64,000 nt of DNA from Spirometra erinaceieuropaei (lineage: Eukaryota; Platyhelminthes; Cestoda; Diphyllobothriidea; Diphyllobothriidae). The notes beneath the pieces were generated by a model. That model saw nothing but the letters and a program-made list of their open reading frames with translations, did no database searches and was not told the origin of the DNA. Position numbers and translations under genes: made by a program. This document shows, one piece after another, positions 18,280-47,559 of this stretch (its first letter is position 1; the number at the start of each line of letters is the position of its first letter). The stretch covers positions 1 through 64,000 of the forward strand of contig CACRXP010000893.1 in NCBI GenBank assembly GCA_902702965.1, written 5' to 3'.

Positions 18280-21200
18280 ATATATGTAAAATATCCAAGG
18301 AAACACATTAAAGTGCGGACGTTTAGGAGGCAGGACCATTGAGGAACAGATACAGTACGTAACCTATCACGTGAAATGTTCTTAGTTTATAAACGTTTAC
18401 CTATGTTTGATGTCGAATTTAATTATTTGAAAAATAACCACAAATATGTCTGCTGCAACAGGATGCTGGCTTTTAAATAGGTTTATGTTTCAAATGTCTC
18501 TATAGATCACACGCGACATAAAATAGCTATTTAATATTCATAATTCGAATTGAAATTCCTATGCCATTCTTTGTCTAAATATATCTTAAAGGAGACATGT
18601 ACACATTTGGCGCCAAATTACGTCCTTTTCAAATTTTATCCACAAGGCCTATGGTGAGAACACTTTCCTAAGACCATGGAATGTCCATCCACTGAACGTT
18701 GCAGTTTTGCGTTTGTAATGGTGATTTCGAAATACTACACATGTTGCACATCCAATGCAGCATTTTTGAGCCCTATTGTACGACTGCCTAATAATCTCCC
18801 GGACATCAGACAGAATTTAGTCTGTCAACTTAATGTCGAGGTGTAACAACAGATCAGGGAGAATTATGCGGAGATTAAAGCAACTTTCAAAAGCTAAAGG
18901 TACAATTTCTTCCAGAATAAAATGTGATAAAATGCGCAATTTGCCAATAAATTTGTTCAGCATATTATCTTAAAATATGTGTGAGAATTAAAAAGCACAA
19001 AGAAATTCGGTGGGATAATTCATAACTATTAAGTCCTTTTAGTCAACAGTGGTTTTTGCAGGCTACCGGGAAAATACATCGTGACCATATTTAAATAACA
19101 GATTATTATGCAAAGCAATATTTAATCCCACTACCCAAGTTTGGCAGTCTTTTAAATCGAAAACCCATTTCCGAATTTCGGTCGACATTCCATTAGACAG
19201 AACAGTTACTGTAATTTGCATTCTAACATTTGTCACATGGTGAATCCAAGGACTCTTAATCTGTTCTTCCATAGGACATGTTTAACTTGCTACGTGTCTA
19301 GTAGACACTTGTGAAATGATTGTGGCATGATGTTTGAGGACGCCATAATTTCAATTTTAAGAATCGGCGGCCTGCATGTCCAAACATAAACGACAGCCAA
19401 TTGATTCTTTGCCTTCGGTTTAGTTGCGGGTTTTCAAACTAATCCACTATAAAATACATATGCAATTTTTTTACGATTTATTTATCCTTTTTTAAACGAA
19501 CAAAACTGGGCAAAAAATACAAAGTCTGACCTAAAAATATGGAAGCTTAGTTTTCTGTCGATTAGTTACGGGACGGATTCAATTACAGTCGTGGGTTCTC
19601 TACACAAAGCGAGTCTGCGCATTATTCAGTACCCACATCAATACAAGCTCAAAACTTGTAAGATTGTTTACCACCGCAAAAAAACCATGTGCGCCATAGC
19701 GATTACAGTTAACAAGTGTTTTATCCATTAAAATTATCACATAGTCAATCGTTTTGTGCAAACATTCACAAATTGCATAACCAACGCACTACCAAAAGGA
19801 GAATCGCGTGACATAAGCCCGAAAATAACGTGCCACTATCGCTGTTTTTTTAGTTTATACTTAAAAACTAAAGATGGTTGTTTTTTATAACATATGCCTA
19901 ATATTATAGTGGTTCTTTTGAAACCGACCACGACTGTTCTGATGTAAATGCCAATTGATATTTGTTCGTAATATGCCAAAACGTAGAGTCGCCGGAGTGA
20001 AAAATCCGCCATTATTACCGAATATGGCGACGCCTTAGACTGACTGGACCCATAAAGAAACTGGCATTCAGGCAAGAGCTTAATATGTCCAAACACGAAC
20101 AGGCGATTTTACACCAATTGTTTTAGACAGATCTTAAAAATCAAAAAGGCAAGTGTATCTGGATGCTTTGCAAGTCTGCCATTTACATTTACAGCCTCTT
20201 GCTTCTACATTTGAAAAAAACGACGATTTGCCAGATTCTATTTTAGTCGCTCTTTCCAGTTTTTTTTAAGAACGCGATATCTGACGTGCCACAGAACGAA
20301 TGTCAGATAACTAAATTTGAGTTTTTGAGTTTATAAAAATGTGAGCTTGACATCGTTCTCCATCGTTGTTTGCTCGAACAGCTTCAAATGTATTTAAAAG
20401 TTAAGGCATTACACACGAGGCTCCCTCAGATAGTACAGCCTTTGTTTTAAATACAACATTTTCTTGTTCATTACTTTCGTCGCTGTTGTGTTGCCAGCTC
20501 TACTAAAAATAAATCGCATAATCTCCTTAAAACGAGACTTAATTTCGAGTCAGCTACTTCAGATTTTATCCAGAAGCCCTGAAATAGACTTTGCGTACTC
20601 AATTTGATGCCCATTTGGAAAATTAATATTTGTGGGCAGCGAAAATCCCTGGACGCAGTAAATGTAAAAATATCAAATTCTCATTTATTGTGCTAACGAG
20701 AAGCGATGCATTGACGCCTCTGTACTCCATATGACAAAGATAGCCTCTTGAAAAGATCTAGTAATCATCAAAAATAATGCAAAGTGTCTGTAGTTGGTGA
20801 AGTGCGAAGAGCTTTTCCTTCCTAAAGAACAGAAATATTCGTTAATCGTTAACTGTGAAAACACAAAATCTCATTAGAAGACATAGTTGACAAGGGCTTG
20901 CCGTTACATGTTTTTTATTTAATTGATCTTAACAAAGAAGTGAAATTTCGTTTAGAAAACATTAATGCTTTTTAAATCCAGACATTTTGATATAGGAAAG
21001 AATGACTTATAAAACAAACCTGTTGTGCGTCGTCTTCAGACCTGCAACGTATTTAATTGAAGCGCACTTAAGACTCCGCAAACGGAGACCAGAATACGCA
21101 AAATCAATAAGGGCAAGGAAAGGCTGTTACGTCCGAGTATTTTAAACAAACTCCAGAAATTAAATACATAAAATGGGTCGCTCCTCACCCCCAATCGAGG

Positions 21201-21400
21201 CTCTCTGTATTCCAATCACTAAAAAAAATTAATTTTGCATAAAGCTCATTAATATCGCGAAGGAAAAGTGTCATATATTTTATCTCTAATGCGGCTTTCC
21301 TATCCCTCTTAATAACATGTTTACTGGAGAAAATGTAAAAACTTGCCATTATCGACAGAAGATAAACGAAGGGGTCAAACTCCAAATGTTATAAATTTTA
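18280..21400. other. AT-rich region, no recognised gene
   Basis: About 3 kb with only short open stretches and no repeat shared with the rest of the window. It lies beyond the final exon of the minus-strand FN3 gene, so its right end may contain that gene's 3' untranslated region; no poly(A) site could be fixed. Confidence 0.55.
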
Positions 21401-21409: not shown

Positions 21410-21522
21410 TCACTCTTTATTTTTTTTGCTGACAAGTACGATGACTAGAATGATGAGGAGGACACCGATCAGTATTCCTATAACTATGCCTGCAATCTGT
21501 CCAGCATTGAGGTTGTTTGAAT
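21410..21522 (-). CDS. Terminal exon: transmembrane helix and cytoplasmic tail
   Basis: The acceptor acccccactcttttctag is followed by a phase-1 exon reading NNLNAGQIAGIVIGILIG then VLLIILVIVLV, a single strongly hydrophobic helix of about 24 residues. A basic SKKNKE tail and a TGA stop at 21,410-21,412 follow. A small-residue GxxxG-like face (GIVIGILIG) could favour helix packing. The splice phase matches the 57-nt exons, so any number of them can precede it. It is too short to stand out as an open reading frame. Confidence 0.78.
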
Positions 21523-24500
21523 CTAGAAAAGAGTGGGGGGTTTTAAAGAAAAAGGTCTTTATATTCAGATAAAAGATATGACTAGCATGACAACAGCAGT
21601 CAGTCAGTGGATTTAAACAAATATTTTAAATTCTCTGCTGTAATACAAAAATCCAAAAATAAATGGCAAAAGCAATTATAAATCCCCGGTTTTCATGTAT
21701 ACTGCACACGCATGCAGGTTCTAAATTTCAATATCACAGAGATCATACATGCAGCCCTAATTAACACTGATTAGACAATATTTTTCAGAGTACATTCCAA
21801 GCAGGGAAGTAGTAACTTATTACATAACATTTACAATTAACTCAATACAGATCCTTTGGGACGGGGTGAAATAGGCATACATACAGTAGATGTGCTAACT
21901 CGTGAAATGTCAACCAAAATTTCGAAATGCGTTCTCGTTTCGAAATGATAAATTAAGTGGTGTTGCAAAACTCATCATGACACAGCATAAATCTTTAATG
22001 ATCCAGTTACTTCAGAGTGTCGGCTTTCGAAGAACTTATTTTCGGCTGCATGCAAGATCTATACTCTGCAAACAATGACTACATAAGTAGCATGCAATTT
22101 TCTCCTTGATTTTCGATGCGCTTGAAAATTCAATTATATTTCATGTAAAACGTGCATAACAATATACAGTCTTTTACCTTTTCGGTACAAAACACGTATT
22201 CTCGGAATTTTTTTTGAAATATGGGTAAATTTAGGTTTCAAAAAAATTTCTAATTGTGAGATTTTCTAAAAACCATTAAATGGCAATACATGAAACGTCA
22301 TGTATCCGCATTTACGAATGTGCCTTGAAATGTTAACAATATTGCTCCAACTCAATGCTTAATTTTATGAACCTCATATGGTCTCATTTTAACACCGTAG
22401 AGCAATGCTTGGTTTTTCGTACACGGAAAATATACAGCTTGTAGTTTTGAAATCCTCAATGCAAGTGTAACAGCGGGTCGGGATCAACATTATTCGGGAA
22501 TGAGAAACGTTTTTTTTAAAACCCAATTGTACTCTTCCTTTGAGTATGAAAACGGAAGAAGATAGGATTTTCTACCGAATAAGTAAAAGCATGGTTTTCA
22601 TTAAATATATTTGAAATTTCAAGGGCGTCGAAAATCAATGAAAAAAATTTCCGCCAATTTATGTAGTCATTTTTTTGCAGAGTATAAATCGTGCAGGCAG
22701 CCGAAAATAAGTTTTTTCGAAAGCCGACACCCTGAGGTAACTGGATCATTATAGATTTCTGCTGCATCATGATGAGTTTTGCAACACTACTTAATTTGTC
22801 TTTTCGAAACGAGAAGGCATTTCGAAATTTTTGTTGACATTTCGTGCGTTAGTAAATCTACTGTATATGCAGAAAATCATTAAAGGACGAGAAAGAGCCG
22901 AAACACAATTGGTTTATGCCCATCTGACATCATATATGTATATGCATGTACAGGAAGTTGGGCATCCCATATATATATATCGGCAGATCCGGTAACGGAA
23001 CGTGCCTTTTCCGATCTGCCTCTAGGAGGATACTAGAATACATAAAGGTAGACGAACAGCGACTAGTAGAAGACATAAATGAGATAGTACTGACAAAGCA
23101 TGCCGGAATGGTCATTTCTGGCATTGTCCAAAAAACAGGGCGTTTTGTCATCAAAGCAAGTGAGCTAGTGAAACTCGATGCTGCGGTCAAAATCTTACTC
23201 CAACCAGTTAAAAAAAGTCGCGAGAGCAACGAAGCTGCGTAATCATAAACGCAAAAGACAAGGAATTAATGGATTGCAAAATTTAATGAAAGTGGCCGCA
23301 GAGTACACATCGAATTAAAACAAATGTTAAGCAGATCAAATCTGACTCAGACTGCGTTCAGGAACGCAAAAGAACATAAGGCCAGCCGACGAGAAAATAT
23401 TCAAATTAATTCAATAAGAATTTATATATCAACTTAGATAACGCGTAGTATTCAGACAACTGGACTGACCAAATTAAAACCGGCAAAGGTGGCCATAACC
23501 TCCAATATAAAAAGAAAGACTAGTGCACCATAATTAAATAATTCTGGAGCCATGATCAAATTCATAACGGGATGCTTCCAATACCACCTCGCGCAGAGAA
23601 GACTAAGAAAACCAACCGCTTGCAGATTCAACAGCACAATAAGAAGACACAATATCTGGTTTAACTAAAGACAAATTCATTAGGAACTCACTAACCTAGC
23701 CGACTCCCAGCTACAGGGATTGTTCGACAACTGGAATAGAAGTCTACAGATTTTAAGTGACTGTTGGGAAATTTACAATTTATGAAACATCAGCTTAACC
23801 TCGGACGGTTTGGCAGTGGGTACAGGCGTGGGATCCGTAGCTGCTGTAGATTTATCTACCAGAATCAGAAAAACCAATAGCTTAAATACATTCGAGACTG
23901 GCAGCATACAAATTTATCGGACACATGTTGCACCATCCAGATACGGATTTTCTCGCTCTATCTCTTAAGGCAGAATCTGTAGAACTCCTGGGCAATTGAT
24001 GGGAAAAGGCTCCATTCCACGTTCGGATAATCAGCATTTACATGAACAAATGTGTGCCATGCGACTAATTCACTTTATAGTTCTTGGATAGATTGGCTGA
24101 CTGCAGCAAAATCTGGCAAGAAAATTTACTTCAAAGCTCACACCAGATTGCAGGCAAAATCGGTTTATATAATCACAAACATGCAATACATGTTAGCATT
24201 TCTGCTCCTTCATTAATGACCTCAAGCGTCTGCAAATTATCCTGCAATTCGCTCTCAGGCTGCCTTGCTAAATTTCACTAATCATTCTGCTCTTACTGTC
24301 CAAAGCCAATACAATAATTTCCTTCGTGTTTGTCATCTGCTGTGAGCATCTCATCACATCTACGAACGCCTTACGCAACATGCTGTTTTCGGTCTCCTTC
24401 CTCCCATCCACTTCATCTGCAATGCTGGAAATTGTGCGCAAAAGCATATAAATGACATTGCCTATCTTGATGTCCTAGGAATGCAGCTGCCTACTGTAAA

Positions 24501-27500
24501 CGTGGATATAGTCCTTCATATTTCTTTAAAAGACAACATATTCTATTTCGGCTCACTATTTTGTCCAAACCCCCAACTAGCCCTCAAAGTAAGCACTGTC
24601 TTTGATTGCAACGTTTTCGAAATCAGCGCTTTTACCCTTTCAAAAAACAGAGCTCTGTTTACCGATGCATTTCATATGATGTATAGTTGTCGGACTTTAA
24701 TCGGATGTAGGCATATCTCATCTCCATGACAGTAGAGGTATTCTGACATACGAAGATCAGACTATTGTACATTTCAGTACTTAGGCAGTACATTCCTAAG
24801 CGGATGCTTCCATTACGACTTCGGGACATGTAGTGGACAAGATTTCTGGTTTAACCAAAGCCAAATTCATTGGGTACTCTGCAAACTAGCCGACTCCCGA
24901 CTACAGGGATTGTTCGACAACTGGAGTAGAAGTCTGTAAATTTTAAGTGACTTTTGCAACATTGAAAATTTATGAAATATCAGCTTACCCTCAGACGGTG
25001 TTGCAGTGGGCACAGGCGTAGGATCCGTAGCTGCAGTAGATTTATCTTCCACAAATAGAAAAAGCAATAGCTTAAATACATTCAAGAATGGCGGCATACA
25101 ACTTTATCGGCCACATCATCGGCATAATTCAAATACGGATTTTGTCTATCTCTCTTAAGGCAGAATCTGTAGATCTCCTGGGCAATTGATGGGAAAAGGC
25201 TCCATTCCACGTTCGGATAATCAGCATTTACATGAACAAATGTGTGCCATCCGACTAATTCACTTTATTATTCTTGGATAGATTGGCTGACTGCAGCAAA
25301 ATCTGGCATGAAAATTTACTTCAAAGCTCACACCAGATTGCAGGCAAAATCGGTTTATATAATCACAAACATGCAATACATGTTAGCATTTCTGCTCCTT
25401 CATTAATGACCTCAAGCGTCTGCAAATTATCCTGCAATTCGCTCTCAGGCTGCCTTGCTAAATTTCACTAATCATTCTGCTCTTACTGTCCAAAGCCAAT
25501 ACAATAATTTCCTTCGTGTTTGTCATCTGCTGTGAGCATCTCATCACATCTACGAACGCCTTACGCAACATGCTGTTTTCGGTCTCCTTCCTCCCATCCA
25601 CTTCATCTGCAATGCTGGAAATTGTGCGCAAAAGCATATAAATGACATTGCCTATCTTGATGTCCTAGGAATGCAGCTGCCTACTGTAAACGTGGATATA
25701 GTCCTTCATATTTCTTTAAAAGACAACATATTCTATTTCGGCTCACTATTTTGTCCAAACCCCCAACTAGCCCTCAAAGTAAGCACTGTCTTTGATTGCA
25801 ACGTTTTCGAAATCAGCGCTTTTACCCTTTCAAAAAACAGAGCTCTGTTTACCGATGCATTTCATATGATGTATAGTTGTCGGACTTTAATCGGATGTAG
25901 GCATATCTCATCTCCATGACAGTAGAGGTATTCTGACATACGAAGATCAGACTATTGTACATTTCAGTACTTAGGCAGTACATTCCTAAGCGGATGCTTC
26001 CATTACGACTTCGGGACATGTAGTGGACAAGATTTCTGGTTTAACCAAAGCCAAATTCATTGGGTACTCTGCAAACTAGCCGACTCCCGACTACAGGGAT
26101 TGTTCGACAACTGGAGTAGAAGTCTGTAAATTTTAAGTGACTTTTGCAACATTGAAAATTTATGAAATATCAGCTTACCCTCAGACGGTGTTGCAGTGGG
26201 CACAGGCGTAGGATCCGTAGCTGCAGTAGATTTATCTTCCACAAATAGAAAAAGCAATAGCTTAAATACATTCAAGAATGGCGGCATACAACTTTATCGG
26301 CCACATCATCGGCATAATTCAAATACGGATTTTGTCTATCTCTCTTAAGGCAGAATCTGTAGAACTCCTGGGCAATTGATGGGAAAAGGCTCCATTCCAC
26401 GTTCGGATAATCAGCATTTACATGAACAAATGTGTGCCATTCGACTAATTCACTTTATAGTTCTTGGATAGATTGGCTGACTGCAGCAAAATCTGGCAAG
26501 AAAATTTACTTCAAAGCTCACACCAGATTGCGGCAAAATCGGTTTATATAATCACAAACATGCAATACATGTTAGCATTTCTGCTCCTTCATTAATGACC
26601 TCAAGCGTCTGCAAATTATCCTGCAATTCGCTCTCAGGCTGCCTTGCTAAATTTCACTAATCATTCTGCTCTTACTGTCCAAAGCCAATACAATAATTTC
26701 CTTCGTGTTTGTCATCTGCTGTGAGCATCTCATCACATCTACGAACGCCTTACGCAACATGCTGTTTTCGGTCTCCTTCCTCCCATCCACTTCATCTGCA
26801 ATGCTGGAAATTGTGCGCAAAAGCATATAAATGACATTGCCTAACTTAATGTCCTAGGAATGCAGCTGCCTACTGTAAACGTGGATATAGTCCTTCATAT
26901 TTCTTTAAAAGACAACATATTCTATTTCGGCTCACTATTTTGTCCAAACCCCCAACTAGCCCTCAAAGTAAGCACTGTCTTTGATTGCAACGTTTTCGAA
27001 TTCAGCGCTTTTACCCTTTCAAAAAACAGAGCTCTGTTTACCGCTGCATTTCATATGATGTATAGTTGTCGGACTTTAATCGGATGTAGGCATATCTCAT
27101 CTCCATGACAGTAGAGGTATTCTGACATACGAAGATCAGACTATTGTACATTTCAGTACTTAGGCAGTACATTCCTAAGCGGATGCTTCCATTACGACTT
27201 CGGGACATGTAGTGGACACGATTTCTGGTTTAAACAAAGCCAAATTCATTGGTTGCTCTGCAGACTAGCCGACTCCCGACTACAGGGATTGTTCGACAAC
27301 TGGAGTAGAAGTCTGTAAATTTTAAGTGACTTTTGCAACATTGAAAATTTATGAAATATCAGCTTACCCTCAGACGGTGTTGCAGTGGGCACAGGCGTAG
27401 GATCCGTCGCTGCAGTAGATATAACTCCAGAATCAGAAAATGCAATTGATGAATATATTCAAGACTAACGGCATACAACTTTATCGGCCACATCATCGGC

Positions 27501-30500
27501 ATCATTCAAATACGGATTTTGTCTATCTCTTATATCAAAATCTGTAGAACTCCAGGGAAATTGATGGGAAAAGGCTCCATTCCACGTTCGGATAATCAGC
27601 ATTTACATGAACAAATGTGGGCCATGCGACTAATTCACTTTATAGTTCTTGGATAGATTGGCTGACTGCAGCAAAATCTGGCAAGAAAATTTACTTCAAA
27701 GCTCACACCAGATTGCAGGCAAAATCGGTTTATATAATCACAAACATGCAATACATGTTAGCATTTCTGCTCCATCATTAATGACCTCAAGCGTCTGCAA
27801 ATTATCCTGCAATTCGCTCTCAGGCTGCCTCGCTAAATTTCACTAATCATTCTGCTCTTACTGTCCAAAGCCAATACAATAATTTCCTTCGTGTTTGTCA
27901 TCTGCTGTGAGCATCTCATCACATCTACGAACGCCTTACGCAACATGCTGTTTTCGGTCTCCTTCCTCCCATCCACTTCATCTGCAATGCTGGAAATTGT
28001 GCGCAAAAGCATATAAATGACATTGCCTATCTTGATGTCCTAGGAATGCAGCTGCCTACTGTAAACGTGGATATAGTCCTTCATATTTCTTTAAAAGACA
28101 ACATATTCTATTTCGGCTCACTATTTTGTCCAAACCCCCAACTAGCCCTCAAAGTAAGCACTGTCTTTGATTGCAACGTTTTCGAATTCAGCGCTTTTAC
28201 CCTTTCAAAAAACAGAGCTCTGTTTACCGCTGCATTTCATATGATGTATAGTTGTCGGACTTTAATCGGATGTAGGCATATCTCATCTCCATGACAGTAG
28301 AGGTATTCTGACATACGAAGATCAGACTATTGTACATTTCAGTACTTAGGCAGTACATTCCTAAGCGGATGCTTCCATTACGACTTCGGGACACGTAGTG
28401 ACACGATTTCTGGTTTAAACAAAGCCAAATTCATTGGTTGCTCTGCAGACTAGCCGACTCCCGACTACAGGGATTGTTCGACAACTGGAGTAGAAGTCTG
28501 TAAATTTTAAGTGACTTTTGCAACATTGAAAATTTATGAAATATCAGCTTACCCTCAGACGGTGTTGCAGTGGGCACAGGCGTAGGATCCGTAGCTGCAG
28601 TAGATTTATCTTCCACAAATAGAAAAAGCAATAGCTTAAATACATTCAAGAATGGCGGCATACAAGTTTATCGGCCACATGTTGCATCATTCAAATACGG
28701 ATTTTCTTTCTATCTCTTATATCAAAATCTGTAGAACTCCAGGGAAATTGATGGGAAAAGGCTCCATTCCACGTTCGGTTAATCAGCATTTACATGAACA
28801 AATGTGGGCCATGCGACTAATTCACTTTATAGTTCTTGGATAGATTGGCTGACTACAGCAAAAACTGGCATGAAACTTTACATCAAAGCTCACACCAGAT
28901 TGCAGGCAAAATCGGTTTATATAATCACAAACATGCAATACATGTTAGCATTTCTGCTCCTTCATTAATGACCTCAAGCGTCTGCAAATTATCCTGCAAT
29001 TCGCTCTCAGGCTGCCTGGCTAAATTTCACTAATCATTCTGCTCTTACTGTCCAAAGCCAATACAATAATTTCCTTCGTGTTTGTCATCTGCTGTGAGCA
29101 TCTCATCACATCTACGAACGCCTTACGCAACATGCTGTTTTCGGTCTCCTTCCTCCCATCNNNNNNNNNNNNNNNNNNNNNNNNNNNNNNNNNNNNNNNN
29201 NNNNNNNNNNNNNNNNNNNNNNNNNNNNNNNNNNNNNNNNNNNNNNNNNNNNNNNNNNNNNNNNNNNNNNNNNNNNNNNNNNNNNNNNNNNNNNNNNNNN
29301 NNNNNNNNNNNNNTACCCTCAGACGGTGTTGCAGTGGGCACAGGCGTAGGATCCGTAGCTGCAGTAGATTTATCTTCCACAAATAGAAAAAGCAATAGCT
29401 TAAATACATTCAAGAATGGCGGCATACAACTTTATCGGCCACATCATCGGCATCAATCAAATACGGATTTTGTCTATCTCTCTTAAGGCAGAATCTGTAG
29501 AACTCCTGGGCAATTGATGGGAAAAGGCACAATTCCACGTATATGTAATAAACGTATTCAATTTATACTTTTTAGATAGTTTGACTGGCTGCGGAAAACG
29601 TCTAGCAATAAAAGGCACTTCAAAGTTTACACCAGCTTGCATTCGAAGGTTTACTCTCCGAATCCTGCGGGCATAATCGGTTTATATAATCACAAACATG
29701 CAATACATGTTGGCATTTCTGCTCCATCATTAATGACCTCAAGCGTCTGCAAAGTATCCTGCAATTCGCTCTCAGGCTGCCTTGCTAAATTTCACTAATC
29801 ATTCTGCTCTTACTGTCCAAAGCCAATACAATAATTTCCTTCGTGTTTGTCATCTGCTGTGAGCATCTCATCACATCTACGAACGCCTTACGCAACATGC
29901 TGTTTTCGGTCTCCTTCCTCCCATCCACTTCATCTGCAATGCTGGAAATTGTGCGCAAAAGCATATAAATGACATTGCCTATCTTGATGTCCTAGGAATG
30001 CAGCTGCCTACTGTAAACGTGGATATAGTCCTTCATATTTCTTTAAAAGACAACATATTCTATTTCGGCTCACTATTTTGTCCAAACCCCCAACTAGCCC
30101 TCAAAGTAAGCACTGTCTTTGATTGCAACGTTTTCGAAATCAGCGCTTTTACCCTTTCAAAAAACAGAGCTCTGTTTACCGCTGCATTTCATATGATGTA
30201 TAGTTGTCGGACTTTAATCGGATGTAGGCATATCTCATCTCCATGACAGTAGAGGTATTCTGACATACGAAAATCAGACTATTGTACATTTCAGTACTTA
30301 GGCAGTACATTCCTAAGCGGATGCTTCCATTACGACTTCGGGACATGTAGTGGACACGATTTCTGGTTTAACCAAAGCCAAATTCATTGGTTGCTCTGCA
30401 GACTAGCCGACTCCCGACTACAGGGATTGTTCGACAACTGGAGTAGAAGTCTGTAAATTTTAAGTGACTTTTGCAACATTGAAAATTTATGAAATATCAG

Positions 30501-33500
30501 CTTACCCTCAGACGGTGTTGCAGTGGGCACAGGCGTAGGATCCGTAGCTGCAGTAGATATAACTCGAGAATCAGAAAATGCAATTGATGAATAAATTCAA
30601 GACTAACGGCATACAACTTTATCGGCCACATGTTGCATCATTCAAATACGGATTTTCTTTCTATCTGTTACATCAAAATCTGTAGAACTCCTGGGACATT
30701 GATGGGAAAAGGCACAATTCCACGTATAGGTAATAAACTTATTCACTTTATTCTTTTTGGATAGATTGACTGACTGCGGAAAACGTCTAGCAATAAAACG
30801 CACTTCAAACTTGACACCAGCTTGCATTCGAGGGTTTTCTCTCCGAATCCTGCAGGCATAATCGGTTTATATAATCACAAACATGCAATGCATGTTAGCA
30901 TTTCTGCTCCTACATTAATGCCCTCAAGCGTCTGCAAAATATCCTGCAATCCGCTCGCCGGCTGCATGGCTAAATTTCACTATTCATTCTGCTCTTACTA
31001 TCCAAAGCCAATACAATAATTTCCTTCGTGTTTGTCATCTGCTGTGAGCACCTCATCAGAGCTACGCTCGTCTTACGCAACATGCCGGTTTCGGTCTCCT
31101 TCCTCCCATCTACTTCATCTGCAATGTTGGAAATTTTCCGCAAAAGCAAATAAATTACATTTTCTATCTTGACTTCCTGGGAATGCAGTAGCCTACCGGT
31201 AATATGCATATAGTACTAGATAAATCTTTGCAAGGCCGCATAATGTATTTCGGCTCCTTATTTTGTATAAAAACACCAACATGAGTTCAAAGTAAGCACT
31301 GTTTTAGACTGCACCGCTTTCGAAATCTGCGCTTTTATTTTTTCAACAAAAAGAGCTCTGTTTACCGCTGCATGTCATATGATCTACAGATGTCCGACTT
31401 TACTCGAATGTAGGCAACTCTATTTTACATGCCCGTAGAGGTATTCCGACGCAGGAATATCGCAGTATTGTACGTTTCAGTACTTAAGAGCGAAAATTTC
31501 CTTCGTATAAATTTAACCATTCGCGAACCCTCGTGGTTCTTTTATAGACTACTTGTGGCTTTACTTAAGAAATGCCACCTAAATTCTCTCATTTCCTCTC
31601 TCATGCTGTTGAGATTCATAACCATTCCGAAGTGTCTTACAATCAAGTGTAGATCGCAAAAAGAAGCCCAAGCTAAATTGCGAAAACACCGGCGTGAATG
31701 AATAAAATGATAGCCCTGGTGGAACACGATTACAATGCGACAGACCTAGTCAGGCAACTTGCAAATTTGATCATTCAACACCCTCCAGTATTTTGAACAG
31801 GTAAAGCATTACAATATATTAAAATTAAAAACTTACTTTCACCGGGTGATGGAGTGACTTCTCCCGTAGGTGTCACTACTGGCGTAGATGTGCCTGTGCG
31901 TATTCAAGTAACGTTTTATTCATGTAGACATCCAGGCTTATCAATAATCAAACGTAGTAAGAATGATCTCTTACGGCGAAACGCTGCCATAATAAACGTG
32001 CGTAAAATTTCCAGCAATTGCAATTTAACTTATCTACATACGTCTAATGAAAAGCCTGATGATATTTTACTTTCAGCCTAATCTCTACACGTGCTAGGTC
32101 CAACGCATGCAGAATGCTGCAAGTGTAATAGTGTAAAAGGCGTAATGCTGAGTTAGTGCAAAATGCAACAAACTGCGATAATTTTTAGCGTACATGGAGT
32201 AGGAATTCGGGTAGTTTCAGACATCGTCGTCGTCGTTTCGTCTTCCGAGGGCGAAGCTGTCGGATTACGACAAAAAAAAATGATTATTTTCGTCACCGAA
32301 TCACAGCAGTAAGCAATGCCCAAAGTACGCCGAAATATCGTGACAGGGCAAAATATATCAATAATGAACATGCACAGATACAGAGCGTAAAATATTCACC
32401 ATTATTCTTTGACCGTTATGCTCTATACTGTAACTGCAAAAGGAAAAGTTTATTATTTCCAAACTCCTCTTTAAACCCACGCAACCCAGATTAGACGACT
32501 ACAGTCAACACAGCTTGTCACATCAGCGACAGATATCGACCTAAATCAGAGCAGGTTGTACCCTTCCTGAGATTTCCTATGCCGAGCGACCACATTTTGT
32601 AGAAGATAATGTATCTATTATTTACAGCCAGTATGTACATGAAGAAACGAAGATCCTCTCTTCAGACAAGCCACTCATAATCAAACTTTAACCCCAACTG
32701 ATGAAAAAAAATGTTGAAAGAACTGCTACAATAAGTAGATGAACGCCACAGGAAAGGTTCTTCTCCTTAGTGCCCTGCATGCGTAATCATTGGTAGCAAC
32801 GCCAATTTTTCCATGTTCTTTGCCTAAAAATCATGAATTCTGATTTCACCGAGTTGCATCGTAAAAACGACTCTGCCATGGAAAATGGCGTCACACAGCT
32901 CTTAAATGGCCAACTTACGCATGTCCGAGAATTTCTGGTCCTTTATTAATGACCTCAAGCGTCTGCAAATTATCCTGTAAGTCGCTCGCCGGCTGCCTGG
33001 CTAAATGCTACTATTCATTCCGCGCTAACTATACAAACCCAATACATTAATTTCGTTCGTGTTTTCCATTAATAATATATGTGGCCATCCGAAATTTTAT
33101 TCGTATCAATTCAACAATTCGCGAACCCTTGTGATTCTTTTCTAGAATAGTTGTGGCTTTACTTAAGAAATGCCACCTAAATTCTCTCATTTCCTCATTT
33201 CTTTTGTGTTGTTCATTAATTATATTTGTGTCATATCCTAGCGGATCTCCACAAATGACTCTAGGATTTCGTTTGCAGTGCAGCTACATTTTGAAGAAAA
33301 TAAGTTGGTCATTCACAGCCAATATGGTCATCAAGAATCGAAGACCCTCTCTTACGATAAGCCACTCAAAATGTAATCGTAGCCCTAACAATTGACAACA
33401 ATAATATAAAAACTGCTTAAATAATCAGATGAACGCCACAGGGACTATTATCTATTAAGTGCCCTTCCTGTGGACTCATTCGCCCCACTGTCAACTCATC

Positions 33501-36500
33501 CGTGTGCCATGCCTGAAAATCTTGATTTCGGATTTCATCGAGTTCCACAAAAACATTCGGTTACAAGCATCATTGCCCCTGTAAAGGACGTCATCCTGCT
33601 ATCCCTTCTCCCCCATATCGACAATATTTGCTGTTTTTATATCATCTTCCGCATTCCGACCTCATGCGGTCTGTCGACGCTCACTGCAGAACCCTCAGTA
33701 GTCACTGTCTCCTAGTAGTTCGGTCGTTCCTCCCTTCCTCACTGCTCGGCTGAGCTCGAAGCGTGCTGTGGCCGATCGCGTCTGGGTTCCACTCGTCTGG
33801 CCTCTTTGACGCGGCGTACCAATCCGGCCCAGACGATCTCAATTGTGAATCCCGTATTCAATGCCATATGCAAGCCAGTCCTGTCTGACCCACATTCGTA
33901 CCCATCAAGGCTGACATTTATTGCTACCCTGACGATGACAGACAACATTCCGTTATACACCGCCACCTACAGGCCAGTGTTGCTCGCTTTTTTCTGTCAT
34001 TATTTTTATTAAGGGCTTTTTTTCTCCTGTAAAATTAAATTAATCATTTTTAACTTTATGTAAGGAGTTTTTTTTCACCCCTCAATCATCATGTTTCTCA
34101 ATGGACTTCCAATTTAGAAACTATGAATTGCATTTTGTAAAGATTCGGCCTACCTCGTCTAAAACTCGCATGTAAATTTATTTTAACTTGCTTTGATGGA
34201 ACCCCGACGGGTCTTTAATAAAAATTATTTATCTATCTATCTGTCTATATATGCCCGAGAATTCGCCTAATGGAGAAACTACCGAAGCAATCATCTTTGT
34301 AAAAAATGCTTTACAATCAAGATACCATCTTTTTGAACTGCTTCATTAAATGATCTGCACGCTGTCGAAGAGAGCGGACTGAGTTTGTTCGCTGATGCAG
34401 TAATCCACATTTGTGTTGGCATCTTCTCTACGCTGAGGTTATGTTATACCATGATTTTTAGCACATATCAAAGACGAGGTCTCATTTTAAGAAAGCGTAC
34501 ACTAGAGCAACTGTGAGATGAGACTTGTATTCCGCTGTACCGCGTTTGGACACATTCCCAACGCTGCGGTGTGCTGGCATCTTGTGAGCACCTACTATTT
34601 AGAGTGAAATGCGTGAATGCTCTGTTATCGCTGCAAAGACGTAAACCCAAAATAAAAACAAAAATTACTTTAAGCAATTTTCTACCTGTCACAGTACAGC
34701 TACAATATCTGGAAATTCTCTGGGGAGCCGGCATTATCTTTTGCAATTATCTATTTCTTGAGAAATCCTCATGGCCATTTCATAATTTACTGAATGCACG
34801 GTTTGTAGTGCTCTGGAAGTGCCACCTGATTGATCTTTTTCAAACACACGAAATTTCAGCCAACGTTCTTGACAATGACAACCATGAACTCACCAGCGAG
34901 AAGGGAGCATGCATGGTAACTTGTGCATGTGTTAGTACATAGTGGTAGTAAACTTGCTCAGTATCTAACGCACTCTCTGCTCCTACTTCCCACGTAGACC
35001 CGATGTTAAGACATAATCGGACGAAGCGGAGGTGACATTCGCAAAGGCAAACACACAGATGAATGTTTAGGCGTCGCAATTAGTGCTGTCTGCTCTACTT
35101 CGTACAGCTTGATAGTGATGGGACGTTGAAATGCGTGTGAAACATTTTTAAATGACGATGTGAGAGCGAAATGGCGTGGTGGAGTTGTAGCGTTAGTCGG
35201 CCTTCGACCACTGTAGGCGCGGTGCTTGAACGTGGCTCTTGTGTGCGCACAAAACTGGTTTTCGCAACCTGATGGCGGCCGCCTCTGCTGTTGCTTACAG
35301 GCACTATCCCAATTTTTAGGGAAAGCTCGATGTTTAGGCGTCGCAATTAATGCTGTCCGTTCTACTTCGTACAGCTTGAATGTGATGGGACGTTGAAATG
35401 CGTGTGAAATAGTTTATAATGATGACGCTGTATTAACAGCACAGGTACCTTCTTCCTCTACCTGGGAACGATGTCAAATCTGCATCAAAAAGAGGGATTA
35501 GAGAGTAGCGTGCAGTGGCCGACAAAGCTAAACAGCCATTTTAAACCTGTCACAAACAGGCCCAGCAGAAGAATGTTTGCCTTTTCAAAAAGCAAGACCA
35601 TTGGGCTCAGATCACACCCAGCGGGCGGCATATCAAGGCTTCATTAAAAAGGGCGTTACTTTCTATCTCCTGTAGGAATAGGACTGCGCCATCACACCAG
35701 TTGGCAGCATCTAAAGACATTTATCACAATTAATTTAAAAATCGTAAAGGAATTTCAAATAATTAATAGTGCGAGGCAGGACGGAAGGAAGAACATGGAG
35801 CAGAAAACACTATAACATATTGGGAGCGCGACTAGTAAACAAATGAAATAAGAAAGCTCAGTCAAAAAGTTGAAATACGAAAAGCTCACTACTAAAATAT
35901 GCGCACGAAAATATCACGAAAAACATTCCTAATATACGCATGTGCAAATTGGATACATTGGAGGCTAACACAAAATACAGAGGCTAAACTGATGCAGAAA
36001 GATAGGGAAGGAAAAGAAAAAAATAGCATTAGTCGCAGTATAAATGCGTAATGCCATTCAGTGCGCACACATAGGAGGATACGTCGCACAGGGCATTAGT
36101 CTGGATAACAACATTTACCTAACCAATTTGTGCATCAGATTTTTCTCCTGATATACACATGTATTATACATTATATGCAATTTTCTGAAGACTCGAACCA
36201 GAAACGCGCACAGAACGCCCAAATGCTACGCACTACATGGGCAGTCTTCCACGCAGCATTGCAGTATTCAGGTATGCGGGAGAACTATCAACTTTCGTTC
36301 ACCAGGGGGTGGTCGTTTTATTAAGTCCTCTATCAATATTTTGTCTGTCGAGGGCAAACCTGTCAAATGGGGAAAAATTGCATTTGTCTTGGCCTGATTA
36401 CGAATAATTATTTTGCTCTCTTTCACATCTGCATAATTTCACCAATTGTCTATTTCTTCAACTTCTATGAACAGTGTCTATGCCTTTATCTTGATTGCAC

Positions 36501-38883
36501 ATATCGTTTTGTGATGGAGGATTCCTTTTTATTTTTATATGTCCTTACGATATGCACTTTCTTATTTCTCGATTTCTGCGCTGTTATTTGCAAATGTTCT
36601 TAACTTATTTTTTGAAATCTTTATCACTTTTTCAAACTTTATCGGGATAGATATTTCTCATCTTTTTCTCTTATCTAGCTGACTCCCATATCACGTGTAG
36701 GCTTCTTAAATATTTCTCATTTGTACATAAATATCCTCAATTTATCTACTTTTCGTTAATCTTCACGTGGTTTGACCCGCCTTCAGAGGAGGCAGTCGGC
36801 TTTTCTCCCTCATGTGTCTAGTCCATCGAACGTCAATATGCGAACGTCTTCCACAGAGTAACCTATGCATTTATCTAGGTGCATATTTGGTCAATTTTTG
36901 ACATTGCACCTCGTATTAGTCTACAATTTTGAATGCATATATATTTATGTCAGTTTGTTTTAGAAAAACCTTTGTTGATTTTAATGTCTAGGCATTGCAT
37001 ATGTCACGTTGTTTTCGCTTTTAACTTTCCACACCTCAGTTTTACTAAGTGCTAAAATCAAAATTGATAACTATTTCATTTGGTTAATGTGTTCAATGTC
37101 CTTAAGACCATCGTTGGTGCTTTATATTCTGTTGTTTTATATCTAGGTCCTTAATTTGCTTTTCATGAGGGACGGTAAACAATGAAATGTCACTTTCTTC
37201 TACCGTATTATCATGTTAAAAACCGAAACTATGTTGTCATGTTGAAGTATAAGTGTCGGTAATTTCATTGCTTATTGTAGTTTTCCAGGTGAAACGCCTA
37301 TTTGACCGCAAACGGTCCTTAACATCTAGTGTATATTGTTTTAAAATATAATTTTGTCAAGACTTCACGAAAAAAAGAGCTTTGTTAAACAAGCTCTTTT
37401 TTTCATTTACCCACCTGTACTTTCCAGTTGTTGAATAATCCGTTGCGACTCAAGGCTACATTGTTTGCCATTGCAGGCTTTGGCTGTCACTGAATACTCT
37501 GTTGCAGTCTCCAACCCCAAAAGGGTGCATTGGCGTTGGTGTGTTTGGTCGCTGGTGGTGCACTCCTTCTCCGGAGCATGTTCACTTGCTGCCTTGACTA
37601 CGTACGTCAGATTGAAGTTCTCACTACCGGCCGCAGGTACTAGTGAAACTGTCATCGACGTTTGGCTTACTTCAATTATTTTTACTGTTGGTGCTGTCAA
37701 AGATAATAAATTGAATCAGAAGTTTGAATACGAAACGCAACAAGGCTAAAAAAAAATTACTTTTCCTTCCATACATCAGAGCCGTTCATTCACATTAGCA
37801 TATTTTTTAACACAGAAACGAACCACAAGGGTACTGATTGCCTTACTTTAAGTCTATCTTATATATGTTGTTGCATTTGCTAAAACCATACAATAATATC
37901 CTAATATACACGTGTGCAAACTACTAATTCGGTCATGTTTTGTGTATACCAAAAAGCCGAAAAGCTCAAGGCAATAATCTCGGACATGCATAAAGACGAA
38001 ATGCACAAGAATTTGCTTACGATTTGGAGCTGTCAGGACACATATTACTTGCTTTGAAATGTTGTGCTTGTTCGAGTATGGATTACGTACAAACATAATC
38101 GCATTATATTGTGTTAGAGGTCGCAGACCGTCAAGAATTGCCATGCTAGCACCCTCCTGAGCTGAAACCTCCAAAGTTTCAGTTTGGTTTTGATTACTTG
38201 CTGACGCAAAGACATTCAAGTTTCGTAGTGTTTGCGTCGGCAAGCTCCAATTAAATTGAATATGTTCGCCGTCAATTGCTTCGGCTGTAAATGTTTCTGC
38301 AGCTAAAATGGTAATCAAAGTTAAACCAGATCAATGAAGTTTACAATTCAGAGATCAAAATGTGTTTACTCATCAGGCCAAGTTACGTCTTTATAAATGA
38401 AAAAATTGTTCGCGAAAAACGCCTAAGTGGTTAGTCGACTTTATTTTTTCCCTTTTGCATTTATATAAACAAGACAATAAAAATAATTACTCAAACATTC
38501 ATGTAGTGTCACGCCTCCCAGGGCGTGGACACTAACAAACGATGTCTGTGATGACGTTTACAATACGCTTATTTTATACATTGTATAGTTAAGTTCGTTA
38601 CCTTGAGGATATGTACAAACATCCCTTGGGCTCGAAGCCTGTTCGCAGTTTTGCGGATTCTCTTCAGCCGATGGACAAATTTTCACCATAACATTGTACA
38701 CAGTGTTTGGCACTAAGTCGTTTATTGTGCAAGCGCAGTTTTCAGTATTCAAGGCATGCTTGCATGTGGAATCAATTTTTTCATTTAAAAACACACGAAA
38801 ACAGCTCTGGGAGTCAGCTTCATATGTCGAACGCCATTGCACAATTATCGCTGTAGAAGCATTGCTAAGGGCTTTGAATCGAC
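21410..38883 (-). CDS. FN3-stalk-transmembrane surface protein gene, 5'-incomplete (overall model)
   Basis: I infer a single spliced minus-strand gene from exons that share one rule: every exon enters and leaves in phase 1. In order these are FN3 exons (38602-38883, 38021-38302, 37415-37693), a 63-nt exon (32194-32256), a diverged 57-nt exon (31837-31893), seven related 57-nt exons (30506, 29317, 28553, 27368, 26179, 24989 and 23799 at their 3' ends), and a final transmembrane exon (21410-21522). The product would be a type I membrane protein with FN3 domains outside, a Thr/Pro/Ser-rich stalk, one helix and a short basic tail. The signal peptide and start lie upstream, beyond the transposons or outside the window. 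The domain order brings the EG95/45W family of cestode FN3 antigens to mind, but I cannot show homology. No transcript evidence is available. Confidence 0.6.
21884..22863. mobile_element. Tc1/mariner-like foldback MITE, 980 bp, flanked by TA
   Basis: Long inverted arms of about 340 bp. The left end reads CAGTAGATGTGCTAAC; the right end, reverse complemented, reads CAGTAGATTTACTAAC. Both arms contain a tttcgaaatg-type segment, a tcggctttcgaagaac/tcggctttcgaaaaaac segment and ccagttac. Each end is directly followed by TA, the duplicated target of the Tc1/mariner superfamily. There is no transposase frame. It sits in the intron before the transmembrane exon of the FN3 gene. Confidence 0.8.
22965..23140 (-). 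repeat. Old tRNA-SINE tail in the last intron
   Basis: Shares the SINE body in the same orientation as 795-940: ggtaacggaacgtgcc, cagcgactagt, tactgacaaag and ccggaatggtcatttctggc. An open frame across it (22,946-23,242) is a by-product of SINE sequence and is not annotated as a gene. Confidence 0.55.
23799..23855 (-). CDS. 57-nt stalk exon, copy 1, with mutated donor
   Basis: Aligned to the others it codes DKSTAATDPTPVPTAKPSE (Lys replacing Thr near the end). The donor reads GAGG|TTAAGC, so the invariant G of GT is lost. A GT one base earlier (GAG|GTTAAG) would give a 56-nt exon and shift the frame. Copy 1 is therefore probably skipped or dead, and splicing may run from copy 2 straight to the final exon. 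Confidence 0.5.
24989..25045 (-). CDS. 57-nt stalk exon, copy 2
   Basis: Base-identical to copy 3 including splice sites. Its 1,190-bp unit and that of copy 3 are nearly indistinguishable over their whole length, so this duplication is very recent or has been homogenised. Confidence 0.7.
26179..26235 (-). CDS. 57-nt stalk exon, copy 3
   Basis: Acceptor tttctatttgtggaag and donor GAGG|GTAAGC bound 57 nt in phase 1-1 coding DKSTAATDPTPVPTATPSE. An internal ctactgcag 15 nt into the exon could act as an alternative acceptor, giving a 42-nt exon in the same phase. Confidence 0.7.
27368..27424 (-). CDS. 57-nt stalk exon, copy 4 (Val-Ile variant)
   Basis: Same exon frame, with the first bases TT ATA giving Val-Ile instead of Asp-Lys and one synonymous change (GCG for GCT). 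Acceptor is gattctggag and donor GAGG|GTAAGC. All internal Thr/Pro positions are kept. Confidence 0.68.
28553..28609 (-). CDS. 57-nt stalk exon, copy 5
   Basis: Acceptor tttctatttgtggaag, donor GAGG|GTAAGC, phase 1-1, coding the DKSTAATDPTPVPTATPSE repeat. The exon is base-identical to copies 2, 3 and 6, while the intron beyond its 5' side carries the catgttgcatc variant also seen at copy 7. Confidence 0.68.
29161..29313. other. Assembly gap, 153 N, inside the exon array
   Basis: Neighbouring exons are 764 bp apart across the gap instead of about 1,189, so roughly 425 bp beyond the 153 N drawn are unaccounted for. A near-identical tandem repeat is a likely place for assembly collapse. Confidence 0.95.
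29317..29373 (-). CDS. 57-nt stalk exon, copy 6
   Basis: Identical to copies 2, 3 and 5, coding DKSTAATDPTPVPTATPSE with the Asp codon split across the junction. Only three bases of the following intron (gta) are visible before the N gap begins, so the donor core GGTA is seen but not its full context. Confidence 0.65.
30506..30562 (-). CDS. 57-nt stalk exon, copy 7 (most 5' of the amplified set)
   Basis: Phase 1-1 exon between acceptor gattctcgag and donor GAGG|GTAAGC. It codes the 19-residue stalk repeat STAATDPTPVPTATPSE, preceded by Ile after a hydrophobic split codon instead of Asp-Lys (first bases TT ATA rather than AT AAA). This variant start is shared with the copy at 27,368. Confidence 0.68.
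31837..31893 (-). CDS. Diverged 57-nt stalk exon
   Basis: Acceptor tacgcacag and a strong donor A|GTAAGT bound exactly 57 nt in phase 1-1, coding TSTPVVTPTGEVTPSPGE plus split codons. It has the same length, phase and Thr/Pro composition as the seven amplified exons but clearly different sequence, so it is probably an older member of the series. Confidence 0.65.
32194..32256 (-). CDS. Probable 63-nt symmetric stalk exon
   Basis: Between a T-rich acceptor (tttttttgtcgtaatccgacag) and a weak donor T|GTACGC lies a 63-nt phase 1-1 exon coding about 21 residues rich in Thr, Ser and Glu (SPSEDETTTTMSETTRIPTP). Length, phase and composition match the other stalk exons and it sits between them and the FN3 exons. 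The donor is non-optimal, so inclusion is uncertain. Confidence 0.45.
33700..34255 (+). repeat. LINE 3' end (family 2), plus strand
   Basis: This matches, in reverse complement, the 3' end of the minus-strand LINE at 53.1-53.6 kb. Shared stretches include gccgatcgcgtctgg, gcctacctcgtctaaaactcg-type sequence and acttgctttgatggaacccc. It ends in a simple atctatctatctgtctata tail, typical of a LINE 3' terminus. It is inserted in the long intron, antisense to the FN3 gene. Confidence 0.75.
34260..37370. other. Intronic region without recognised exons
   Basis: Apart from the short duplication at 35.1-35.4 kb, no exon-like phase-1 open stretch with splice sites was found. Several 60-120 codon open stretches exist on both strands, but none has recognisable motifs. 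Confidence 0.5.
35062..35430. repeat. Tandem duplication of about 100 bp, 268 bp apart
   Basis: The stretch atgtttaggcgtcgcaatta through gtgatgggacgttgaaatgc occurs at 35,062-35,160 and again at 35,330-35,430 with high identity. It lies in the long intron between the FN3 exons and the stalk exons. Confidence 0.8.
37370..37403. other. Perfect hairpin just inside the intron after FN3 exon 3
   Basis: Thirteen-base perfect stem (aaaaaaagagctt / aagctcttttttt) with an 8-nt loop, starting 11 nt after the donor of the FN3 exon in transcription order. It could fold in the pre-mRNA close to the 5' splice site. No function can be claimed from sequence alone. Confidence 0.6.
37415..37693 (-). CDS. FN3 domain exon 3 of the visible set
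   Basis: Exon of 279 nt, acceptor tctttgacag, donor G|GTGGGT, phase 1-1. The 93 residues start with PTVKIIEVSQTSMTVSLVPA (A and B strands) and contain LLGLETATEYSVTAKAC (E-F region with the Leu and Tyr core). There is one NLT sequon and four cysteines. It is the last FN3 exon before the small stalk exons. Confidence 0.82.
38021..38302 (-). CDS. FN3 domain exon 2 of the visible set
   Basis: Exon of 282 nt, acceptor attttag, donor C|GTAAGC, phase 1-1. The 94 residues include GEHIQFNWSLP (B strand with Trp), LDGLRPLTQYNAIMFV (Leu/Tyr core of FN3) and three N-glycosylation sequons (NWS, NQT, NIS). The sequons fit a secreted or surface protein. The open frame continues past the donor for about 60 codons, but that part has no FN3 character and is taken as intron. 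Confidence 0.8.
38602..38883 (-). CDS. FN3 domain exon 1 of the visible set (cysteine-rich)
   Basis: Exon of 282 nt between a polypyrimidine acceptor (ttttttgctttag) and the donor G|GTAACG, phase 1 at both ends. It codes 94 residues with the FN3 pattern: an early AIIVQWRS strand, then INDLVPNTVYNVMVKI, the typical L-x-P-x-T-x-Y turn and F strand. Seven cysteines are present, more than usual for FN3, and suggest disulfides in an extracellular domain. It is the most 5' exon I can see; nothing upstream to 39,024 looks like another exon. Confidence 0.78.
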
Positions 38884-39023
38884 CTAAAGCAAAAAATAAG
38901 AGTGACTGACGAAGATATTAATAAAACATTTCGTGGTTGTTGCATGGGCAAGGCAATATTATGACCAAGATAAATGAAATTAATCCCCTCGAATACGCAG
39001 GTATGGCTTTATTACGCTATTCC

Positions 39024-39338
39024 AATTCTGGCTTATGTGTGCACACGTAAGCCAGTGCAACTATAATGTTTGGAAAATAAGATACATATGTATCTTATTT
39101 TCCAAACATTATAGTTGCTATCATGATACTATCGTAGTAAGATACATATATAAATTAACCATAGTTATTTTATATATATATAAAATAACTATGGTTAATT
39201 TATATATGTATCTTACTACGAAAGTATCATGATAGCTATCATGATACTATCATGCATGATAGTATACTAGTATACTATCATGCATGAATATAACTATCAT
39301 GAATATTATAATATTCATACATATGCGTAACTCATACA
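39024..39338. repeat. Palindrome-built 315-bp repeat, intact copy
   Basis: The unit is a chain of near-perfect palindromes. One is about 60 bp centred near 39,089 (gatacatatgtatc core). One is about 110 bp centred near 39,180 (tatatatatata core). One of about 40 bp is centred on actagt near 39,271. It begins aattctggcttatg and ends gcgtaactcataca, where the next copy starts 315 bp later. No coding potential is present, and each arm would extrude as a long hairpin. Confidence 0.85.
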
Positions 39339-39486
39339 AATTCTGGCTTATGTGTGCACACGTAAGCCAGTGCAACTATAATGTTTGGAAAATAAGATAC
39401 ATATGTATCTTATTTTCCAAACATTATAGTTACTATCATGATACTATCGTAGTAAGATACATATATAAATTAACCATAGTTATTTT
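39339..39486. repeat. Second palindrome repeat copy, left half
   Basis: Repeats 39,024-39,170 with few changes and stops at the centre of the large palindrome, where the DNA transposon begins. The right half resumes at 43,435. Confidence 0.88.
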
Positions 39487-43609: not shown

Positions 43610-44219
43610 CCTTGACTTGTGTTAAGGATCTGGTAAATATCAAGGCGGATGCGGATAAATAAACTGACAAAATATTCGAATCTCACTTTAGTACTAAACG
43701 CCAACTGATTTCTGACAGAACAACTTACTTACGGCACCTAAACAGGTCGAAGTCAGAAATGATAATAATATGATGATTCTTCCTCCAGCGTAAGCGTATA
43801 AGGCCATTCTGCAAACTTCACCTCCCACAAGTACCAATCACAGCCCCAGGCCCCTCGTTACTCCTCACTGACCACACGCGCGTTTATAGATGACTTAAAT
43901 TATTTACGGTCTAACGTTAGAATAGGCTACTGGTAAAGGTCGTGCATTGCGGAGTAAGCTCATTTTGGATGCTAGTTAGATTAAGTCAATATACTTGAGG
44001 GAAGTGCTGCACATCCCAAGGTTATATTTGCCGCAAAATTCGGGGACGGAAACATCAAACGAAGAAAAACATTATCGAAACTGTACAGATAAACGAATTA
44101 GCCCAAGTGTTATTAACGCTGACACTGACACATTGAACAGAAGTCAGTCTGAGGGAAATTGCGTTCAAAAAAATTTGGTTTGATTTCAGCTGTCTGAAGA
44201 AGCAAAAGCTACAGCGTTA
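43610..44219. other. Unassigned spacer between transposon and gypsy element
   Basis: AT-rich; a 62-codon open stretch (43,995-44,183) has no recognisable motif. No repeat shared elsewhere in the window was found. Confidence 0.5.
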
Positions 44220-47440: not shown

Positions 47441-47559
47441 CAGACCTCCAAACAGCAGACGAGTCCATCGCGGACTTAATTACGTCTACTACTCTGCAGC
47501 GTCGCCAGGTACGCTTTTTTTCGGTTGTTCCACCGGCACCCCTCGTACTGTCGTTCCAC

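Follow-up and report, generated by a model that had tools for sequence, protein, structure and literature searches.

The window, that is, the whole stretch of DNA analysed, comprises the first 64 kb (64,000 nt) of contig C893 of Spirometra erinaceieuropaei, which has 211,331 bases in total. A real FN3 gene lies on the minus strand of the window; compared to the original prediction, its 5' end is longer and its 3' end is different. The features of this gene, in the direction of reading, are as follows.

43729..43807, minus strand, signal-peptide exon (MALYAYAGGRIIILLSFLTSTCLGAV), starting with ATG and ending at a phase 1 donor
38602..38883, minus strand, FN3 exon a, 282 nt, phase 1-1, Pfam fn3 E 3.3e-5
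38021..38302, minus strand, FN3 exon b, 282 nt, phase 1-1, Pfam fn3 E 0.002
37415..37693, minus strand, FN3 exon c, 279 nt, phase 1-1, Pfam fn3 E 5.6e-8
32194..32256, minus strand, 63-nt Thr-rich stalk exon, phase 1-1, also present in the C70 paralogue
31837..31893, minus strand, 57-nt Thr/Pro stalk exon, phase 1-1, unrelated in sequence to the cassettes
23646..31150, minus strand, tandem array of exon and intron units of about 1190 nt, limits approximate
30506..30562, minus strand, stalk cassette 1, 57 nt, or 42 nt via an inner CTGCAG acceptor
29317..29373, minus strand, stalk cassette 2, donor truncated by an N gap following GTA
29161..29313, assembly gap (N) within the array
28553..28609, minus strand, stalk cassette 3
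27368..27424, minus strand, stalk cassette 4
26179..26235, minus strand, stalk cassette 5, KSTAATDPTPVPTATPSE form
24989..25045, minus strand, stalk cassette 6
23799..23855, minus strand, stalk cassette 7, GT donor lost (TTAAGC, compared to GTAAGC in the others)
21414..21522, minus strand, transmembrane (TM) exon, 109 nt, phase 1-2, GTGAGC donor
21189..21218, minus strand, cytoplasmic micro-exon, 30 nt, phase 2-2
21020..21041, minus strand, cytoplasmic micro-exon, 22 nt, phase 2-0
20771..20821, minus strand, last coding exon, directly followed by the stop codon

The signal-peptide exon was located by tblastn with the N-terminus of P0002, a paralogue from Sparganum proliferum (76% identity over 25 residues); the original prediction had found no such exon and had called for an upstream search. 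The donor of this exon consists of two overlapping GTAAGT motifs, the second of which is in phase 1. The three FN3 exons of 282, 282 and 279 nt, each with phase 1 at both ends, are present where they had been placed, as open frames flanked by splice sites. Exon by exon, the Pfam FN3 profile matches all three; exon c alone exceeds the cut-off of 25 bits, with 33.3 bits, and exons a and b, taken singly, reach 24.4 and 18.7 bits. The paralogue P0002 contains three fn3 stretches, with 70.5 bits for the whole protein, and by sequence it matches fibronectin chains in the PDB (best E 5e-8). Phase 1-1 is the usual phase of extracellular modules (Patthy's rule), and the symmetry of the FN3 exons is therefore ordinary. 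In the first intron, two 153-nt repeats (39019-39171 and 39334-39486), 98% alike, are found amid AT-rich palindromes. Rfam and tRNA scans were empty.

By scanning the whole window for Ser/Thr/Pro-rich symmetric phase-1 candidate exons, one candidate was obtained on the plus strand and 13 on the minus strand, where all but one (12) belong to the FN3 gene; 30 first-order Markov sequences used as a control gave a mean of 0.17 and a maximum of 1. The 12 candidates in the gene correspond to two acceptor choices each for the 63-nt exon and five cassettes, and these five cassettes go back to a single event. The exon at 31893 and two cassettes escaped the scan, and with a stricter acceptor filter, the 63-nt exon alone was recovered on the minus strand.

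The stalk follows the FN3 exons. Its 63-nt exon was found as predicted, at 32256-32194 and in phase 1-1. Eight 57-nt exons had also been proposed, and eight sites do exist; however, seven are copies of one unit of about 1190 nt, and the eighth (31893) is unrelated to them. The seven cassettes are spaced 1185-1190 nt apart, with one spacing of 765 nt across the N gap, and because this gap lies inside the array, the count of seven is a minimum. Phase 1 at both ends holds for the 57-nt exons, but in cassette 7 (23855-23799) the in-frame GT donor is missing; the closest GT, one base before that position, would cause a frameshift. A stalk of up to about 170 residues is too long an estimate, as the 63-nt exon, the 57-nt exon and six cassettes give a maximum of 462 nt, or 154 residues. 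In addition, every cassette has a second in-frame acceptor (CTGCAG, or AGCAG in the last copy), which yields a 42-nt exon. A stalk exon of 57 nt only was rejected, as the 42-nt form is used in the deposited models P0004, P0005 and P0007. Where both acceptors are present, the sole model, P0001, takes the outer one (57 nt). In the C70 paralogue, where one acceptor is missing, the models take the other, so that copies 1 and 2 are 42 nt and copy 3 is 57 nt. Since the stalk exons are symmetric (phase 1-1), copies can be added or removed while the frame is kept. Compared over the cassette and the 1100 nt of intron upstream of it, five of the window copies share 94.8-98.8% identity; copy 1 is 82-84% identical to the rest, and copy 3, whose upstream stretch holds the N gap, 83-88%. 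A 127-aa frame lies on the plus strand opposite the array unit (24346-24726 and its copies) and is open in four copies; it has no Pfam match at E<=1.

For the TM exon, the predicted acceptor at 21522 stands, but the exon is entered in phase 1 and left in phase 2 and is not of the 1-1 type. The TGA after the TM helix was considered as the true end of the gene and rejected, because it lies in the GTGAGC donor that is spliced by P0001, P0004 and P0005. This donor, as GTGAGC or GTAAGC, is kept at the same place in all five aligned loci, the window included. Judged by eye, the 30-nt tail exon is present in five of these loci and the 22-nt exon in four. In P0004 and P0005, which represent the C70 paralogue, the sequence INKN-DWNTDAFDLR-SEYDPPEE corresponds to the TM exon, the 30-nt exon and the 22-nt exon; the tail of the window gene, read in frame, is KKNK-DDWNTESLDWG-SEDDAQQ-EGKALRTSPTTDTLHYF. 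A similar TM helix, 47-53% identical, was observed on C322 (loci L021-L024, e.g. 575501-575626), a scaffold rich in FN3 matches, where the frame continues into a different cytoplasmic tail.

The deposited gene models tell us how these exons are joined. According to the accessible text of PMC8166898, Augustus was run with intron hints from RNA-seq to obtain the published S. erinaceieuropaei models, and P0001, P0004 and P0007 probably belong to this set. P0001 ('unnamed protein product [Spirometra erinaceieuropaei]') contains FN3 exons b and c, the 63-nt exon, the 57-nt exon and three cassettes exactly, as well as the last 29 of the 93 residues of FN3 exon a. Three of the seven window cassettes are used: the KSTAATDPTPVPTATPSE form is found twice, and the third has the sequence of cassette 7. 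P0001 leaves cassette 7 one base early and continues at an acceptor within the TM exon, which is then read in a different frame, whereby the TM helix is lost; the 30-nt and 22-nt tail exons are used too, with the frame shifted, and the model ends on the same last coding exon in the other frame. We read this frame jump as a prediction artefact; alternatively, the end without a TM helix may represent a soluble isoform. With regard to the proposed joining of FN3, stalk and TM exons, P0001 thus supports the step from FN3 to the stalk exons but enters the TM exon in the other frame.

On the other hand, P0004 runs in frame from FN3c through five stalk exons to the TM helix and the tail, and it is the only model with an intact stalk-to-TM-to-tail end. 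The proposal that an FN3 head, a Thr/Pro stalk and a TM exon belong to one gene is borne out by this model. P0005, which represents the same gene in another assembly, has three stalk exons in frame and a helix shorter by 17 residues than that of P0004. The Aus1 models, as described in the available part of PMC12249497, were made by BRAKER from short and long RNA reads, with S. erinaceieuropaei and S. proliferum proteins as evidence; P0005 is therefore not independent of P0004. Direct-RNA Nanopore reads from spargana are also reported in PMC12249497. P0007, from another gene, has one cassette, enters the TM exon in frame and leaves it half way. From residue ~249 onward, it resembles, by eye, a reverse-transcriptase frame at 15146-15442 on the minus strand of the window, and to the eye the model looks as if it runs from the TM exon into a transposon. 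In P0008, no cassette is used, and FN3c is joined directly to a TM exon; P0009 has neither a cassette nor a TM helix; and P0002, P0003, P0010 and P0011 are without a cassette. The number of stalk exons per deposited family model therefore ranges from none to five. With the best 8000 candidates scored, no cassette of the C964 type was found in P0001-P0011. That the FN3 exons are never joined to a 57-nt exon or to the TM exon is contradicted by these models, which are RNA-seq-guided predictions. Because the differing stalks belong to different genes or assemblies, the models do not demonstrate regulated splicing of one gene.

The gene belongs to a family. The genome searched comprises 758.7 Mb in 1932 contigs. 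With P0002 as the query, 62 matches were obtained, on C1148, C893, C964, C774, C70, C244, C10, C106 and C834. The TM and tail exons gave 19 matches at E<=1, including two within the window, and the cassette region gave 28 (C893, C964, C774 and C70), all on FN3-family scaffolds. Similarly, the intron of the array unit had 25 matches (C893, C964 and C70), all on FN3-family scaffolds; the DNA search skips very common words, so this low count is no proof of rarity. FN3, cassette and TM matches occur in the same order and on the same strand at four loci, each of which presumably represents one gene. These four loci, and two further ones with FN3 exons and cassettes, are listed below.

C893, minus strand, window gene, 7 cassettes with a period of ~1190 nt
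C893 118-143 kb, FN3-cassette-TM locus, 3 cassettes in the 4 kb fetched
C893 207-199 kb, FN3-cassette-TM locus, 1 cassette in the 4 kb fetched, donor lost
C964 27-64 kb, FN3-cassette-TM locus, 15 cassettes with a spacing of 725-730 nt (~726 nt)
C774, FN3 and 2 cassettes, no TM match on that strand
C70, FN3 and 3 cassettes, sequence reading N where the TM exon is expected (from base 1097 of the fetched piece onward)

The nearest paralogue by FN3 lies at C1148 133-134 kb and corresponds to P0003; the genome search with the cassette region had no match there. All 31 cassettes found measure 42 nt between the homologous sites and are free of in-frame stops, a count that holds partly by construction, as the listing patterns allowed substitutions only and a copy with an indel could escape; the even spacing of the C964 and window arrays leaves no room for such a missed copy there. 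In 4 of the 31 cassettes (window 23855; C964 44354 and 48718; C893 203802), a splice site is lost, and no in-frame substitute was seen.

Other repeated or mobile sequences surround the gene. About eight 374-nt units form a tandem array at 1668-4609, with long frames on both strands. A reverse transcriptase piece at 13704-14429 on the minus strand matches Pfam RVT_1 with E 1e-4, under the curated cut-off, and is presumably Penelope-like. Just upstream of the signal-peptide exon, the plus-strand frames at 45018-48618 resemble gag-pol, and we take them to be part of a Gypsy-type LTR element. A plus-strand frame at 62405-63999 is, we assume, the endonuclease-like frame of a non-LTR element. In the first intron, the plus-strand frames at 40171-41254 are regarded by us as transposase-like; the frame at 40171-40830 has no Pfam match at E<=1.

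By comparing array copies with each other, the way in which the arrays grow may be traced. In C964, copies 3 and 9, and likewise 4 and 10, are 97% alike, more than neighbours are, and the outer two copies are 83-89% identical to the rest. The last copies of the C964 array and of the C893 128-kb array have their own variant end in common. In addition, C70:578908-579265 shares 97% identity with a stretch of 358 nt in the window unit, compared to 78% for two other places on C70, and a recent exchange between genes is likely. Such patterns fit unequal exchange within arrays together with occasional exchange between genes. The exon itself contains no gap columns in the alignments of C964 (14 units) and of the window (6 units); outside the exon, there are 12 and 196. 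Variability is also lower in the exon than elsewhere in the unit (Fisher p 0.008 for C964; in the window, 0.007 with six copies and 0.08 with five), with sites that are not independent. However, among sliding windows, 104 of 683 in C964 and, in the window array, 497 of 1121 (five copies) or 303 of 1121 (six copies) vary as little as the exon. Exon conservation within the arrays is unexceptional by this measure and was rejected as proof of function.

The FN3 domains of the window gene were compared with those of the C1148 paralogue (L052) over 38603-38881, 38022-38300 and 37416-37691. The dN/dS values, which are pairwise estimates, are 0.89 for FN3a, 1.11 for FN3b, 0.39 for FN3c and 0.78 for the three together. 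The membrane-far domains therefore change fast, and the membrane-near FN3c changes more slowly. Introns of the two genes diverge by 0.16 and 0.22, about equal to the 0.16 at silent sites.

Based on the results presented above, the window gene quite probably encodes a Spirometra type I membrane protein with a signal peptide, three FN3 domains, a stalk of tandem-copied Ser/Thr/Pro mini-exons, a TM helix and a short tail, the length of the stalk depending on the copy number and inclusion of the mini-exons. A whole exon and intron unit has been copied in tandem, with 7 copies found here and 15, 3, 3, 2 and 1 found in sister genes, most likely by unequal exchange within arrays. As the mini-exons are in phase 1-1, the gain or loss of one would leave the frame intact, and how far the FN3 head stands from the membrane would depend on copy number together with exon inclusion. 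The stalk may be O-glycosylated, a property that composition by itself does not prove, and the FN3 protein would face the host.

An adjustable stalk is plausible, and its main rival is drift. In the most far-reaching form of the adjustable-stalk reading, the mini-exon copy number acts as a molecular ruler that sets the reach of host-facing FN3 receptors. Fast array change by unequal exchange between and within genes would then make worms of one species differ, and the 42/57-nt acceptors and exon skipping would trim the stalk further; this form is tentative and on the doubtful side. There is an appreciable chance, if short of an even one, that the arrays are instead by-products of unequal exchange in repeated introns, in which symmetric extra copies are harmless and mostly skipped and the stalk length has no function. 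The loss of splice sites in 4 of 31 copies would be expected under drift, as would the lack of C964 cassettes in any retrieved model, the use of only 3 of 7 copies by P0001, the five retrieved family models that, besides P0008, are without a cassette, and the unexceptional conservation of the exon against sliding windows. Nevertheless, cassettes are used in the models of three family genes (P0001, P0004/P0005 and P0007), and both the gap-free exon alignments and the lower variability of the exon, with the reservation on site independence given above, speak against drift.

Two other readings start from the same arrays. Splicing-based antigenic variation, in which random skipping of cassettes produces a repertoire of similar surface proteins exposed to the host immune system, as has been proposed for schistosome micro-exon genes, would suit symmetric exons in a predicted ectodomain stalk, a multigene family and the higher dN/dS of the distal FN3 domains (0.89 and 1.11, compared to 0.39). 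However, the cassettes are near-identical, so that skipping alters length and not sequence, and the dN/dS values are pairwise estimates; we consider this reading unlikely. Far less probable still is an artefact, with the array being a mobile repeat or a mis-assembly that looks exon-like by chance. The N gap with its short 765-nt spacing and the transposon-like frames around the array would be in line with it. A transposon origin of the array unit was nevertheless set aside, because its 25 intron matches in 758.7 Mb all fall on FN3-family scaffolds, in a search that skips very common words. Moreover, the C964 array has another period, and a model of the C70 stalk exists in a second assembly (P0005), although S. 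erinaceieuropaei proteins were part of the evidence for it. The transposon or artefact reading is thus largely refuted.

Provided that the cassettes do enter the mRNA, whole-exon copy number can alter how long a surface stalk is with the frame unbroken, and a micro-exon gene design is joined to a coding copy-number repeat design in a flatworm family. This would offer a concrete, testable case of quick change in the reach of a parasite surface protein. The locus is a warning as well: predictions for genes of this kind may be faulty, as in the deposited model of the window gene, where the frame changes at the cassette that has no donor and the TM helix is lost.

The stalk exon array is an exon copy-number repeat common to the FN3 gene family. 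Among the literature on micro-exon genes, cestodes, Spirometra/Sparganum and fibronectin, searched largely outside subscription papers, no description of this array was found; in the available text of PMC8166898, the FN3 family is given as expanded in S. proliferum. Like EG95, 45W and TSOL45, the window gene has a signal-peptide exon, FN3 exons and a C-terminal anchor, and it belongs to a multigene family; TSOL45 transcripts are spliced alternatively to contain two, one or no FN3 domains, according to the accessible part of PMC3383989. According to the available part of PMC2671473, the EG95 gene consists of three coding exons and specifies a single FN3 domain and a GPI anchor. Unlike EG95, the window gene encodes three FN3 domains followed by a stalk array, a TM helix and a tail, and it does not show the layout of three exons with one FN3 exon and GPI anchorage. 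The protein search returned 3 matches at E<=0.001, all from Spirometra or Sparganum and none of the EG95 type, in a procedure that needs shared 5-residue words and from which distant kin may escape. EG95 is, moreover, listed as absent from S. erinaceieuropaei in the accessible text of PMC4265353. These comparisons do not establish kinship with EG95.

The likeness to micro-exon genes (MEGs) is partial. Like flatworm MEGs, the window gene has a run of short symmetric exons behind a signal peptide that can be skipped in frame, and the signal-peptide and TM exons predict the secreted or anchored product expected of a MEG. One operational rule, as stated in the available part of PMC7653826, requires a gene to have 7 exons or more, of which at least half are <70 nt and divisible by 3, and a run of at least 4 such exons. 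With six cassettes included, the window gene would have 9 such exons among 16, with a run of 8; the deposited P0001 has about 5 among 12 and falls short of the rule. The part of PMC4350168 at hand describes MEGs as genes whose coding region lies mostly in tiny symmetric exons, and VAL-6 of schistosomes as joining a conventional domain to a run of short symmetric exons. In contrast to MEGs, micro-exons make up ~492 of 1599 coding nt here (~31%), and the run consists mainly of one exon and intron unit that is near-identically amplified, with a copy number that differs between sister genes. The MEG logic that had been proposed therefore applies to the short symmetric exons and to this one operational count, but covers about a third of the coding length.

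For the array itself, a parallel is found in human LPA. The kringle repeat units of LPA hold exons and introns, and like LPA, the window gene contains tandem in-frame units of exon and intron. The tandem copy-number repeat of LPA kringle IV type 2 sets protein size, with 5.6 kb units present in 1-40 copies per allele (PMC11462820, in the part available). The LPA unit, however, encodes a folded kringle domain, and its number varies between people, whereas the unit described here carries a short stalk exon whose number varies between paralogues.
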